From Lacunisphaera limnophila (GTDB taxonomy: Bacteria > Verrucomicrobiota > Verrucomicrobiia > Opitutales > Opitutaceae), in NCBI RefSeq assembly GCF_001746835.1, contig NZ_CP016094.1, positions 3,611,501 to 3,675,500 on the forward strand: 64,000 bases of DNA, read 5' to 3'. The position numbers and the translations under genes were made by a program. Positions 2-58,383 of the stretch are shown here, one piece after another (position 1 is the first letter of the stretch; each line of letters starts with the position of its first letter). The notes beneath the pieces are model-generated. The model was given only the letters and a program-made list of their open reading frames with translations, was not told the DNA's origin and searched no databases.

Positions 2-1087
2 TGGATCACGCAGGTCGCGATGAACCTGGCCCGCGACGCCCTTCGCCACCGCAAGATGGCCACCGGCAAGGAGGCCGCCATCATCACCCATCACGAGCAG
101 ACCACCGCCACGCCGGCCGTCGCCTGGGAGGCCGCGCACGGGATCCGCGACGATGCCCTCCGGCTCATGTTCGTCTGCGCCCATCCGGCCATCGCCCCCG
201 ATGCCCAGGTGATCCTCGCCCTGAAGATCCTCTGCGGTTTCAGTACCGGGGAAATTGCGCGCGCCTTCCTCGCGACCGAGGCCGCCATTGAAAAGCAGCT
301 CACGCGCACCAAGCAGCGCATCGCCGAGGCCGGCATCGGCTTCGAGCTGCCCGAGGGCGCGGACCTGGCCCCGCGACTCGACGGCGTGCTCGCCGCGATC
401 TACCAGCTCTTCAACGAGGGCTACAAGGCCTCCTCCGGCGACCGGCTCCTGCGCGAGGAGCTTTGCCAGGAGGCGGTCCGCCTCGGCCTGCAGCTGGTCG
501 CCCACCCGGCGGGACGCGCGCCGCGCTGCCACGCCCTGCTCGCGCTCATGCTGCTCACCATCGCCCGCTTCCCGTCGCGCCTCGATGAACAGGGCGCGGT
601 CCTGCGCCTCGACGCGCAGGACCGCAGCAAATGGAACCAGGCGCTCATCGCGCGCGGCCTCGTCCACCTCGCCGCGGCGGCCGAGGGGGACGCGCTCAGC
701 GAATACCACCTGCAGGCCGGCATCGCCGCCACGCACTGCCTGGCGCCCGATTACCTGTCCACCGACTGGGACCTCATCCTCCGCCACTACGACGAGCTCC
801 TACGCCTGAAACCCTCGCCCGTCGTCGCGCTGAACCGCGCCGTTGCTGTCGCCAACCGCAACGGCCCGCAGGCCGGCCTCGACGCCCTCGCGGCCATCGC
901 GCAGCGCGAGAAACTCGAGACCCACTACCTGCTCCACGCCGTGGAGGGAGAATTGCGCTGGCGGCTCGGCGAACCCGCCGCGGCAGCAGCGGGTTTCCGT
1001 CGCGCCCTGGCCCTCGCCCAGGTCGGCCCCGAAAAAGCCCACCTCACCCGCATGCTGGAGAGGTGCGAGGCTGCGGGAGTAATGTAG
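2..1087 (+). CDS. ECF RNA polymerase sigma factor, DUF6596 (ECF42-like) type, 5' end missing
   Basis: This is the C-terminal part of an extracytoplasmic-function sigma factor; the open frame runs in from the left edge. The first visible residues (WITQVAMNLARDALRHRK) match the end of sigma region 2. They are followed by the hallmark of the SigJ/DUF6596 group, LRLMFVCAHPAIAPDAQV, and a sigma-4 helix-turn-helix (GFSTGEIARAFLATEAAIEK). A long TPR-like C-terminal domain (LHAVEGELRWRLGEPAAAAA) replaces a classical anti-sigma partner in this family. Family knowledge says these sigma factors usually sit beside YCII/DGPF-domain genes, which would be upstream and outside the window. The TAG stop lies inside a dispersed GC-rich palindrome, so the last residues may be element-derived. 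Confidence 0.85.
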   Translation, partial: WITQVAMNLARDALRHRKMATGKEAAIITHHEQTTATPAVAWEAAHGIRDDALRLMFVCAHPAIAPDAQVILALKILCGFSTGEIARAFLATEAAIEKQLTRTKQRIAEAGIGFELPEGADLAPRLDGVLAAIYQLFNEGYKASSGDRLLREELCQEAVRLGLQLVAHPAGRAPRCHALLALMLLTIARFPSRLDEQGAVLRLDAQDRSKWNQALIARGLVHLAAAAEGDALSEYHLQAGIAATHCLAPDYLSTDWDLILRHYDELLRLKPSPVVALNRAVAVANRNGPQAGLDALAAIAQREKLETHYLLHAVEGELRWRLGEPAAAAAGFRRALALAQVGPEKAHLTRMLERCEAAGVM

Positions 1088-1110
1088 GGCGGGATTTCCA
1101 AATCCCGCCT
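1083..1110. repeat. REP-like GC palindrome, family A, single copy
   Basis: A single unit beginning TGTAGGGCGGGA with the complementary arm TCCCGCC, able to form a compact hairpin. The same unit recurs near 5.6, 13.7, 19.9, 41.2, 51.3, 56.7 and 58.4 kb. Its first TAG is the stop codon of the sigma factor gene. Confidence 0.75.
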
Positions 1111-5572: not shown

Positions 5573-5680
5573 TGTAGGGCGGGGTCGCCGAACCCCGCCT
5601 TCGGGCGATTATTATGCCGCGTTCGTGGCGGGATTGCTTCGCCATCTCCGCCAAGCCTCCGTCGGCGATCCCGCCCTACA
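5573..5680. repeat. REP-like palindrome pair, family A (BIME-like)
   Basis: Two inverted copies of the GC palindrome face each other (left TGTAGGGCGGGGTCGCC, right GGCGATCCCGCCCTACA) about 50 bases apart, so the whole segment can fold as one long hairpin. It lies between the 3' ends of two convergent genes and could act as a bidirectional terminator or mRNA-stabilising structure. Confidence 0.8.
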
Positions 5681-13649: not shown

Positions 13650-13730
13650 TGTAGGGCGGGGTCGCCGAACCCCGCCACGACTGTGATATCACTTTCGGAC
13701 ACCGGCGGGGTTCGGCGACCCCGCCCTACC
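13650..13730. repeat. REP-like palindrome pair, family A (BIME-like)
   Basis: Near-perfect inverted pair: left TGTAGGGCGGGGTCGCCGAA and right TTCGGCGACCCCGCCCTAC, 20 bases each, around a short AT-richer spacer. It lies between the response regulator gene and ffh on the same strand. Confidence 0.85.
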
Positions 13731-19694: not shown

Positions 19695-19768
19695 TGGACG
19701 CTGAGGGACTCGAACCCCCGACAGCCTCGGTGTAAGCGAGGTGCTCTAACCAACTGAGCTAAGCGTCC
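19695..19768 (-). tRNA. tRNA-Val (anticodon UAC)
   Basis: The minus strand folds into a standard 74-base cloverleaf. The acceptor stem GGACGCT pairs with AGCGTCC plus discriminator A. The D arm is GCTCAGTTGGTTAGAGC. The anticodon stem CCTCG/CGAGG encloses CTTACAC (anticodon TAC), and the T arm is GGGGGTTCGAGTCCCTC. The CCA end is not encoded. It lies directly upstream of hemC. Confidence 0.97.
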
Positions 19769-19885: not shown

Positions 19886-19966
19886 TGTAGGGCGGGATCG
19901 CCGAATCCCGCCTTCCTGCGAATGGGATGCTACGTACGCGGCGGGGTTCGGCGACCCCGCCCTACA
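19886..19966. repeat. REP-like palindrome pair, family A (BIME-like)
   Basis: Left copy TGTAGGGCGGGATCGCCGAA, right copy TTCGGCGACCCCGCCCTACA, with a spacer of about 40 bases. The right copy overlaps the 3' end of rluD and provides its TAG stop. A further palindrome, GTCCCGCGGCCGCGGGAC, lies just upstream at about 19.82-19.84 kb. Confidence 0.85.
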
Positions 19967-20918
19967 CCTTCACCTTCTTCAACGCCGCCAGCATCTGCTT
20001 GAAGTCCTTGGGCAGCGGGGCGTTCAGGTCGAGCACCTTGGCGCTGACGGGGTGGCTGAACACGAGGTGCTCGGCATGCAGCATCACCCGCGGCGGCACC
20101 GGCAGGGCCGGGTTCTGTTTCCAACCATAAGTCTCGTCCCCCAGCACCGGGTGCCCGAGCGATTTCATGTGCACCCGGATCTGGTGCGTGCGGCCCGTGT
20201 GAATGCGGCAACGCACCAGGGCGGCGTGCACCCCAAATTTCTTCTCCACTTCCCAGTCCGTCCGCGAGGGTCGTCCGCCCTCGCCCGTCGTCATCCGGTG
20301 CCGGTGCACGGGGTGGCGGCTGATGCTCCGGTCGATCGTGCCGCTGTCGGTCTTGGGCACGCCGGACACGATGGCGACGTATTCCTTGCGCAGGGTGCGC
20401 GAGGCAAACTGGTCCGCCAGCGCCCGGTGCGCGGCGTCGTTTTTCGCCACCACCAGCAGGCCGGTCGTCTCCTTGTCGAGCCGGTGGACGATGCCCGGAC
20501 GCTCCACGCCGCCGATGCCGCTCAGCTCGCCCTTACAATGGGCCAGGAGCGCATGAACCATGGTGTCCTCGCCCGTGCCGATGCCCGGATGGACCACCAT
20601 GCCGGCGGCCTTGTTGAGCACGATGAGGTGCTTGTCCTCAAAGATCACCTCGAGCGGGATGTCCACCGCCGTGATCACCGCGGCCGTCACTTCGGGAAAG
20701 CTGAACTCCAGGGTCTGACCGCCGCGCACCTCGTTGGCCTGGGAAATGACCACGCCGTCGGCCTTGACCAACCCCGCCTCCAGGGCGCGCTGGAACGCCG
20801 CGCGGCTGTGCTCCGGAAAGGCGGCGGCCAGCACCTTGTCGGCGCGTTCGCGGCGTTTCTCGGGCGGGATGAGGTAGGTGGTGGCTTGCAAGTGCCCGCA
20901 TGCTGCATGCCCGGGCAT
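19962..20918 (-). CDS. rluD: RluA/RluD-family 23S rRNA pseudouridine synthase
   Basis: About 318 residues. An N-terminal S4 RNA-binding domain (ERADKVLAAAFPEHSRAAFQ, with EAGLVKADG) is followed by the pseudouridine synthase catalytic domain. The catalytic aspartate is in GIVHRLDKETTGLLVVAKND; RIHTGRTHQIRVHMKSLGHP and GDETYG are also present. It most likely modifies helix 69 uridines (1911/1915/1917), but RluC specificity cannot be excluded. The start is uncertain: ATG at 20918, TTG at 20927 or TTG at 20891, because the 5' region overlaps a GC hairpin. The stop codon is part of a family A palindrome. Confidence 0.9.
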   Translation of the reverse strand: MPGHAACGHLQATTYLIPPEKRRERADKVLAAAFPEHSRAAFQRALEAGLVKADGVVISQANEVRGGQTLEFSFPEVTAAVITAVDIPLEVIFEDKHLIVLNKAAGMVVHPGIGTGEDTMVHALLAHCKGELSGIGGVERPGIVHRLDKETTGLLVVAKNDAAHRALADQFASRTLRKEYVAIVSGVPKTDSGTIDRSISRHPVHRHRMTTGEGGRPSRTDWEVEKKFGVHAALVRCRIHTGRTHQIRVHMKSLGHPVLGDETYGWKQNPALPVPPRVMLHAEHLVFSHPVSAKVLDLNAPLPKDFKQMLAALKKVKV

Positions 20919-41184: not shown

Positions 41185-41239
41185 TGTAGGGCGGGGTCGC
41201 CGACGCAGGCTTGGCGGAGATGGCGAAGCAACCCCGCCT
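41185..41239. repeat. REP-like palindrome, family A, degenerate pair
   Basis: Starts TGTAGGGCGGGGTCGCCGA, continues through CAGGCTTGGCGGAGATGGCG (also present in the 5.6 kb element, inverted) and closes with ACCCCGCC. A partial extra copy (TGTAGGGCCCCAC) follows. It lies between convergent MMPL and TonB-like genes. Confidence 0.7.
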
Positions 41240-49883: not shown

Positions 49884-49955
49884 GGAGGCGGGGTGCCCCC
49901 ACCCCGCGTGTCTTGATGTGATCCAGCAGAAGCGGGGTGAAGGCACCCCGCCTCC
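49884..49955. repeat. GC-rich inverted repeat, GGAGGCGGGGTGCC type
   Basis: GGAGGCGGGGTGCCCCCACC faces GGGGTGAAGGCACCCCGCC-type sequence with a TCTTGATGTG-containing loop. It lies between the DUF3108 gene and the convergent mpg gene, whose TGA stop is three bases beyond its right end. Confidence 0.75.
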
Positions 49956-51321: not shown

Positions 51322-51403
51322 TGTAGGGCGGGATCGCCGTATCCCGCCTTCGTTCGAAGCGTATGCCGCGTTCTTGGCGGGGGTTCGGAGACACCACCCT
51401 CCA
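51322..51403. repeat. REP-like palindrome, family A
   Basis: TGTAGGGCGGGATCGCCGTA with arm TCCCGCC, a spacer containing ATGCCGCGTTCTTGGCGGG (also in the 5.6 kb pair) and a degraded right copy ending ACCACCCTCCA. Confidence 0.7.
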
Positions 51404-51453
51404 CCCCCAACCCCATCCTTGCCCCGCTCCCCACCTTCCGCCTGACTTTCTGC

Positions 51454-56652: not shown

Positions 56653-56740
56653 TGTAGGGCGGGATTTTCAAATCCCGCCTGCCTTGAAAGTCAGCCTGTG
56701 GGAGCGAAGCAAAGGCGGGGTTTTGAAACCCCGCCCTCCA
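56653..56740. repeat. REP-like palindrome pair, family A
   Basis: TGTAGGGCGGGATTTTCAAA left and TTTTGAAACCCCGCCCTCCA right, spacer about 40 bases including CTGTGGGAGCGAAGC. It sits between convergent ppx/gppA and asd genes. Confidence 0.85.
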
Positions 56741-58356: not shown

Positions 58357-58383
58357 TGTCGGGCGGGATTGCCCAATCCCGCC
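58357..58383. repeat. REP-like palindrome, family A, next to the RAYT gene
   Basis: TGTCGGGCGGGATTGCCCAA with TCCCGCC closing arm. It lies 27 bases from the 3' end of the RAYT-like gene, the arrangement typical of RAYT/REP systems. Confidence 0.75.

Follow-up and report, generated by a model that had tools for sequence, protein, structure and literature searches.

The two facing palindromes at positions 5573 to 5680 of the window (the whole stretch of 64,000 nucleotides of the Lacunisphaera limnophila chromosome analyzed here) form one of approximately 90 to 98 inverted pairs found in this chromosome among the sites listed. These pairs are very probably REPINs, linked to a RAYT transposase encoded in the same genome. 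While the REPIN/RAYT system is of a known type, the long, loop-inserted arms found in a minority of elements showed an unexpected polarity relative to replication in this single genome.

Structure of the repeat unit

The repeat unit consists of an arm, a 27-nt linker and an inverted arm. Arms occur in a short form (S, 27 nt) and in two loop-inserted forms (M, 54 nt, and N, 58 nt). The S arm is represented by TGTAGGGCGGGGTCGCCGAACCCCGCC and variants of this sequence, in which, according to the fold, an 8-bp stem comes after a GTAG foot; the M arm has 27 extra nt between GA and A, and the N arm has 31 extra nt in the loop. The pair at 5573 to 5680 combines a short and a long arm, as follows.

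5573 to 5599, plus strand: short REP arm (S) with a TGTAG foot and an 8-bp hairpin (direct reading, fold and arm variants)
5600 to 5626, no strand: 27-nt linker, a diverged copy of the quasi-palindromic consensus (pair reading and linker comparison)
5627 to 5680, minus strand: REP arm of the long type (M, 54 nt), equivalent to an S arm plus a 27-nt loop insertion (arm comparison and pair reading)
5635 to 5661, minus strand: the 27-nt loop insertion CGGAGGCTTGGCGGAGATGGCGAAGCA, between GA and A (comparison of S and M arms)

In the arm alignment, GTAG occupies columns 2-5 and the hairpin begins at column 6, placing GTAG directly 5' of the hairpin. The 8 pairs of the S stem are unbroken. In the 13 distinct variants of the arm, columns 12 and 21 of the stem pair as A-T 8 times and as G-C 5 times, and in one of them a stem G-C is replaced by C-G; stem pairs 6-11 were set by the rule used to select the arms and are therefore without evidential value for pairing. 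When secondary structure was modeled, as an earlier sequence-only reading of this DNA had proposed, a composed consensus 81-mer folded as a single hairpin (z -13.4). On its own, the 27-nt cassette forms a weak fold (-4.0 kcal/mol, z -1.55) made up of a GGAG foot and a hairpin.

Other elements of this family in the window are as follows.

1083 to 1109, plus strand: lone S arm; an ORF that ends at 1087 takes its stop codon from the TAG of the GTAG foot
13650 to 13730, no strand: 81-bp S-S pair with right foot GGTAG
19886 to 19966, no strand: 81-bp S-S pair; its right foot provides the stop codon (19962-19964) of the minus-strand ORF 19962-20891
41185 to 41238, plus strand: lone long arm (M) with no recognisable partner
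51322 to 51404, no strand: S arm and decayed right arm (chromosome position 3662822); in the relative G235, the corresponding site carries a long arm
56653 to 56740, no strand: 88-bp S-S pair with a 34-nt linker and right foot TGGAG
58357 to 58383, plus strand: degenerate single S arm (TGTCGGGCGGG...)

What the sequence-only reading had observed is real in the main, and was partly confirmed. It had reported facing copies of TGTAGGGCGGG, which are present at 5573/5680, 13650/13730, 19886/19966 and 56653/56740, and the copies at 41185 and 51322, where it had described a decayed second copy, are indeed single or decayed; the arms at 1083-1109 and 58357-58383 were absent from it. The spacer of 40-60 bases that it gave has to be revised, as the two 11-mers are 59-86 bases apart and the hairpins are joined by a linker of 27 nt, or of 34 nt at 56.7 kb. 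Of the two phrases that it assigned to the spacer, GCTTGGCGGAGATGGCGAAGC actually lies in the M-arm loop, on the minus strand at 5.6 kb and on the plus strand at 41.2 kb, while GCCGCGTTC(G/T)TGGCGGG does represent the 3' end of the linker but also takes in the start of the next arm (5.6 and 51.3 kb). These phrases were said to recur in three elements; each is found in two window elements, and three elements carry them jointly. A named RNA family was rejected as an identity for the palindromes, since the only match to Rfam in the window at gathering thresholds was a tRNA at 19695-19768.

Genome-wide census and conservation of arms and linkers

In the 4,199,284-bp chromosome, the exact 11-mer TGTAGGGCGGG was found in 197 copies (97 + 100) compared to 7 copies (2 + 5) of the reversed control, and the 18-position arm pattern GTAGGGCGGGNTCNCCGA was found 154 times compared to 0 for its control. 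These counts already refute the idea that the elements are chance palindromes or a simple GC-rich motif, the probability of which we consider practically nil, even though the window is GC-rich and the 11-mer is common when 2 mismatches are allowed (29.35 matches expected in the window; 58 were found, and none of 100 shuffles reached as many).

The sites for the census were the union of three pattern listings, which included 185 of the 197 exact feet. Among the sites listed, the rule applied by the script gave 98 inverted pairs and 38 singles; 9 of these pairs were accepted with 3 mismatches in the partner foot, at least one other pair (2682965) seems spurious, and several of the singles represent chance hits, double-foot palindromes or long-arm cases. 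Single copies greatly outnumbering pairs, which the sequence-only reading had named as evidence against a paired unit, were thus not found. Pair sizes were discrete: among the sites listed, the length is exactly 81 bp in 41 pairs, 107-108 bp in 22 and 112 bp in 6 (one of which, at 3662822, is a misclassified decayed S pair). The remaining pairs are spread between 56 and 131 bp, a range that leaves no room for a gene inside the mobile unit. Three palindromes of approximately 31 bp, at 2682991, 3386624 and 1424271 (loci L215, L226 and L188), carry GTAG feet on both sides; double-foot REPs have been proposed to arise by central deletion of a pair (PMC6006769).

A total of 64 linkers of 27 nt, once oriented, gave the nearly palindromic consensus TCGAACGCGATATCGCGTTCGAACGAA. 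Among the 41 S-S elements, mean pairwise identity was 58% for the linkers and 90-92% for the arms, while shuffled linkers showed approximately 26% identity. Therefore, the paired unit is real, and no part of it is less conserved than the inner spacer. The linkers do share a consensus, and the genome-wide comparison of pairs did find similarity among spacers, the lack of which had been named as a refutation; the claim of a conserved inner spacer is nevertheless not supported, since the arms are far better conserved and one of the two phrases belongs to a loop insertion. As in other REPINs, two REPs in inverted orientation (98 pairs) make up a unit that, judging from the composed consensus, folds as a whole, and its ends are more conserved than its spacer (0.90-0.92 versus 0.58 in the 41 S-S elements). 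At 514486, 710070 and 1555246, linkers are enlarged by a nested palindrome (e.g., GTAGGGTCGCCGC...GCGCCGACCCTAC at 710070), which suggests that REPs may insert into REPINs.

RAYT genes and their flanking repeats

Two genes in the genome match PF01797. The main RAYT, a protein of 155 aa encoded at 2,125,100-2,125,564 on the minus strand, scored 31 bits with PF01797 (cut-off 23) and 115.3 bits with NF047646, the NCBIfam model "REP-associated tyrosine transposase" (cut-off 80); its score under the IS200 model, 26.8 bits, is below the cut-off of 55. Its best match in the PDB is 4er8, TnpArep (E 1.8e-7). This gene is flanked by an M-S pair on one side and an S-S pair on the other, as expected of a cognate RAYT, and it most likely amplified the REPINs of this chromosome.

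RAYT flanks were compared across 93 other distinct loci, including the second RAYT of the same genome. Feet of the GTAGGGCGG type were found on both sides at 7 of 12 loci with at least 54% identity, at 4 of 45 loci with 50-54% identity and at 4 of 36 loci with less than 50% identity; 4 of the 12 closest RAYTs had this foot on neither side. Across 200 genomes of the family, the number of GTAGGGCGG feet is only loosely coupled to RAYT similarity, and no RAYT match was found in G023, a genome that is 95% complete and has 12 feet, or in G180, which is 74% complete and has 18 feet.

The second RAYT, at 63506-64018 (63.5 kb), scored 77.1 bits, just below the NCBIfam cut-off. It is flanked by a different, GGAG-footed palindrome, GGAGGCGGGGTGCCCTCACCCCGC, with 21 copies in the genome at up to 2 mismatches. 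This family is also REPIN-like, with several facing pairs, including one in the window at 49884-49955. Feet described in the literature consulted are GTAG or GT[AG]G, and no word beginning with GGAG occurs in the available main text of PMC8266576 or PMC6006769.

Siting at gene ends and matching slots in relatives

For analysis of genomic context, the 136 elements were reduced to 130 by dropping three singles judged to be chance hits (89345, 474104 and 1274798) and by merging sites within 60 bp. Based on our own simple gene calls, 124 of the 130 elements are located outside called genes (63 between convergent genes, 58 between codirectional genes and 3 between divergent genes) and 6 are inside gene calls; among adjacent gene pairs of the window segment, by contrast, only 9 of 57 converge. 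With the same gene calls, the median distance to the 3' end of a gene was 14 bp, with 102 of 184 distances being 20 bp or less. The TAG of the foot serves as the stop codon for 12 genes, at 10 of the 130 elements. The same placement has been reported for GTAG REPs (PMC3733652).

The sequence-only reading had proposed a comparison of occupied and empty sites, which was carried out here against relatives. Both flanks could be matched in a relative for 21 sites, in a non-random sample of relative stretches, and no such element was visible in 16 of these, as judged on the first 260 nt between the flanks (the gaps at 1539679, 1755980, 3055768 and 3986444 exceed this length). At 4 sites (253419, 3000111, 3662822 and 3975233), a similar arm could be seen, and site 1538479, where presence of an arm is ambiguous, falls in neither group. 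At 3244953, for example, an 81-bp element is found here and 15 nt separate the matched flanks in G161, and no such element is present between the flanks matching site 13650 in the relatives G161 and G071. Flank identity at the empty slots is mostly 68-93%, and the neighborhoods are partly rearranged. For the pair at 5573, the two relatives listed first (G235 and G161) could be matched at the gene downstream but not at the gene upstream, so a clean empty site is not available there. That the paired form looks like the mobile unit, as had been suggested from the window, is supported by the absence of elements from matching slots, the discrete pair sizes, the single-hairpin fold of the consensus and the pairs flanking the RAYT, on which mobility would depend. 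In G235 (locus L293), the slot of the REPIN at 388249 is occupied by another palindromic pair, also with GTAG feet (GTAGCGGCGGTC...), as if intergenic slots could be reused.

Replication polarity of the long arms

GC skew is negative from 0 to 1.28 Mb and from 3.45 Mb onwards, and positive from 1.35 to 3.4 Mb, with some 150-kb bins lacking data. Taking these switches of sign as a guide, the origin and terminus were placed near 1.3 and 3.4 Mb; dnaA, at 464, is distant from the skew switch. Among the sites listed, 32 of 35 long arms (28 M and 7 N) lie opposite to the leading strand as defined by GC skew (Fisher p 7e-7), with 18 on the plus and 1 on the minus strand in the left replichore and 2 on the plus and 14 on the minus strand in the right replichore. 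This count excludes row 3620406, which has 14 mismatches and no GTAG foot (32/36 if included), and it was constant over 9 choices of origin and terminus. The exceptions are 1538368, 1539599 and 3617180, the last of which is the pair at 5573 to 5680; as the element at 1538368/1538506 has two long arms, the count without it is 31/33. By local skew alone, which matches the replichore in 92 of 105 segments, the polarity is followed by 29 of 35 long arms. It is seen in 19 of 20 cases at convergent genes and in 13 of 15 cases where genes are codirectional; in 7 of these 15, the genes are on the leading strand. A hand count gave 29 long arms, out of the 35, with a recognisable short partner, and the polarity holds for 27 of them. 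Single S arms lean the same way weakly (19/27, p 0.05), after exclusion of 11 of the 38 single rows as chance hits, double-foot palindromes, long arms or partners of long arms, and the linkers of symmetric pairs are weakly polar (25/41, p 0.2).

Polarity by local skew was followed by 7 of 9 copies in G161 (5 of 7 among hand-sorted REP-type copies) and by 5 of 15 in G235, where contigs are small and skew is weak. For copies of the cassette in relatives, the respective numbers were 16 of 37 overall, including copies outside REPs, and 9 of 14 for those with a GGGCGG arm. A scan of E. coli K-12 for REP motifs, covering 8 segments of 50 kb each (400 kb in total), gave 30 REPs, among which 7 simple Y/Z heterodimers were usable and showed orientations of 4:3. 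The polarity, which was noticed post hoc and in one genome, is thus a strong single-genome result; its generality in relatives or E. coli was not reproduced convincingly.

Replication polarity of REPs was not found in the literature searched, which left most subscription journals out of reach, and the available text of PMC3733652 on GTAG REPs makes no mention of it. In Pseudomonas fluorescens SBW25, tandem REP arrays have been reported to be oppositely oriented on opposite sides of the genome (PMC3116915), and an E. coli intergenic triplex repeat, which is not a REP, has been reported to show no strand bias (PMC4666352).

Origin of the loop insertion

Linker identity was 0.570 for M-M, 0.584 for S-S and 0.574 for S-M comparisons (permutation p 0.61), the orientation of the linker relative to the long arm was mixed (16:7), and sites 3662822 and 3975233 have a short arm here and a long arm in G235. 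Because linker identities are equal, linker orientation is mixed and short and long arms alternate with G235, the loop insertion appears to have been gained, lost or exchanged in place, which suggests that long and short arms may interchange in place. The possibility that the long-arm elements represent one lineage was rejected on the same three observations.

The 27-nt cassette is also found outside REPs in relatives, likewise between GA and A and often in a ccacGA/A context (37 copies outside this genome were examined, out of 39 listed or counted). At six such non-REP loci in other genomes of the family (L298, L295, L296, L297, L305 and L306), the cassette adjoins this recurring intergenic context, and in some (such as L298) it is followed by tggacacgaatg repeats. 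A search for the loop cassette in part of the other loci gave nothing clear. That the cassette is a minimal REP nested in a REP is only a guess.

Possible mechanism and alternative explanations

A REPIN/RAYT system combined with a replication-coupled account of the polarity is, as a whole, the explanation that we favor with considerable confidence. The RAYT would recognize the GTAG foot and hairpin arm in single-stranded DNA, chiefly on the lagging-strand template, and would copy the doublet into intergenic slots. On this template, the first arm in the direction of the fork has the GTAG-hairpin form, and this is the S arm for 27 of the 29 long arms with a short partner. The loop insertion would change in place, by gain, loss or exchange, rather than being inherited as a separate lineage. 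TnpAREP proteins that have been tested process the REP strand and not its inverse (PMC8266576), and IS200/IS605 relatives are reported to act and insert on the lagging-strand template (PMC6006769). Taken together, these properties lead to two versions of the polarity account, one in which insertion or template switching at the fork is strand-biased and one in which the arm readable by the RAYT is retained on the lagging template. Certain loop positions are intolerant of change in 2 of 3 models, and the E. coli loop sequence is reported to have no specific role (PMC8266576). The evidence for change in place slightly favors a strand bias at the fork. The replication-coupled account itself is tentative, and we place it somewhat below an even chance. 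More doubtful still is the idea that the elements carry a built-in compass, in which a 27- or 31-nt cassette repeatedly enters one loop in place, almost always (32 of 35 long arms) choosing the arm that would be unreadable to the RAYT on the lagging template, and so may turn a symmetric palindrome into a directional one that records fork-coupled REP processing; the 27-nt cassette may here be a nested minimal REP.

Polarity could also arise if the long-arm elements were a separate REPIN lineage, copied as a unit and inserted with fixed polarity in the lagging-strand template, as has been described for IS200/IS605 (PMC6006769). The discrete sizes of 107-108 and 112 bp are consistent with such a lineage, but the orientation of the linker relative to the long arm varies, linkers of long-arm elements are no more alike than others, and S and M arms alternate at the matching sites of a relative; we regard this possibility as rather unlikely, if with a sizeable share of the probability. 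Much less probable is that the polarity merely follows from the direction of genes or from base skew. In its favor, the long-arm insertion has a G-rich strand, which is that of the arm itself, and the elements sit close to gene ends; this G-rich strand, however, runs against the chromosomal skew. Gene orientation was rejected as the cause, since neighboring gene calls of 300 bp or more show no strand preference (100 plus and 88 minus in the left replichore, 68 plus and 78 minus in the right) and since convergent genes, which supply no direction, show the polarity at 19 of 20 sites.

With regard to the presence of the elements at gene ends, the hairpins could be kept chiefly as RNA elements, such as terminators or stabilizers of mRNA 3' ends, with mobility being a matter of the past. 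The closeness to gene 3' ends seen with our own gene calls, the use of the foot TAG as a stop codon, the rarity of divergent sites (3/130) and the higher conservation of arms compared to linkers would all fit an RNA role. Insertion that avoids promoters and genes would yield the same siting, however, and the absence of the element from 16 of 21 matched sites makes a fixed function at each site unlikely. In addition, conservation of GTAG outside the hairpin is a requirement of a RAYT and not of an RNA hairpin. We consider a predominant RNA role unlikely, and REPINs mobilized by a RAYT remain the preferred reading.

Relation to known repeat systems

The elements share with the REPINs of P. fluorescens SBW25 (Bertels and Rainey 2011, PMC3116915) inverted REPs with highly conserved ends and a less conserved spacer, a hairpin formed by the whole unit, over-representation of doublets and a link to a RAYT. 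They differ in sequence and host, and in that a minority of elements carry a replication-polar 27- or 31-nt loop insertion in one arm. With the GTAG REP super-family (PMC3733652), they share the GTAG foot, a stem within the 6-9 bp range, homo- and heterodimers in opposite orientation and sites at the ends of convergent and codirectional genes. In the same study, Opitutus terrae was described as highly enriched in GTAG repeats.

Inverted REP pairs, unequal loop lengths and a cognate TnpAREP are also features of E. coli BIMEs (PMC8266576, PMC3733652), and REP pairs in opposite orientation are found here as in BIMEs. However, E. coli REPs require a bulge in the stem (PMC8266576), whereas the S stem is unbroken and of a different sequence. 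The comparison to BIMEs made by the sequence-only reading therefore holds for the general class, BIME and REPIN being equivalent, and not for a specific tie to enterobacteria; overall, its interpretation is partly supported, since it named the right kind of element (a REPIN or BIME unit) but erred in calling the spacer conserved. IS200/IS605 elements such as IS608 and ISDra2 have in common with this system related Y1 HUH transposases and hairpins in the single-stranded lagging template (PMC6006769). Unlike these elements, the REPINs are gene-free and carry no transposase of their own, and the RAYT falls below the cut-off of the IS200 model.

These findings provide a clean REPIN/RAYT system in the Opitutaceae, with one high-scoring RAYT and a second RAYT that has its own GGAG-footed repeat. 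If the polarity of the long arms is also true in other isolates, it would represent genome-scale evidence for REP processing on the lagging-strand template, which, in the literature consulted, has so far been backed mainly by IS200/IS605 relatives and by in-vitro work.
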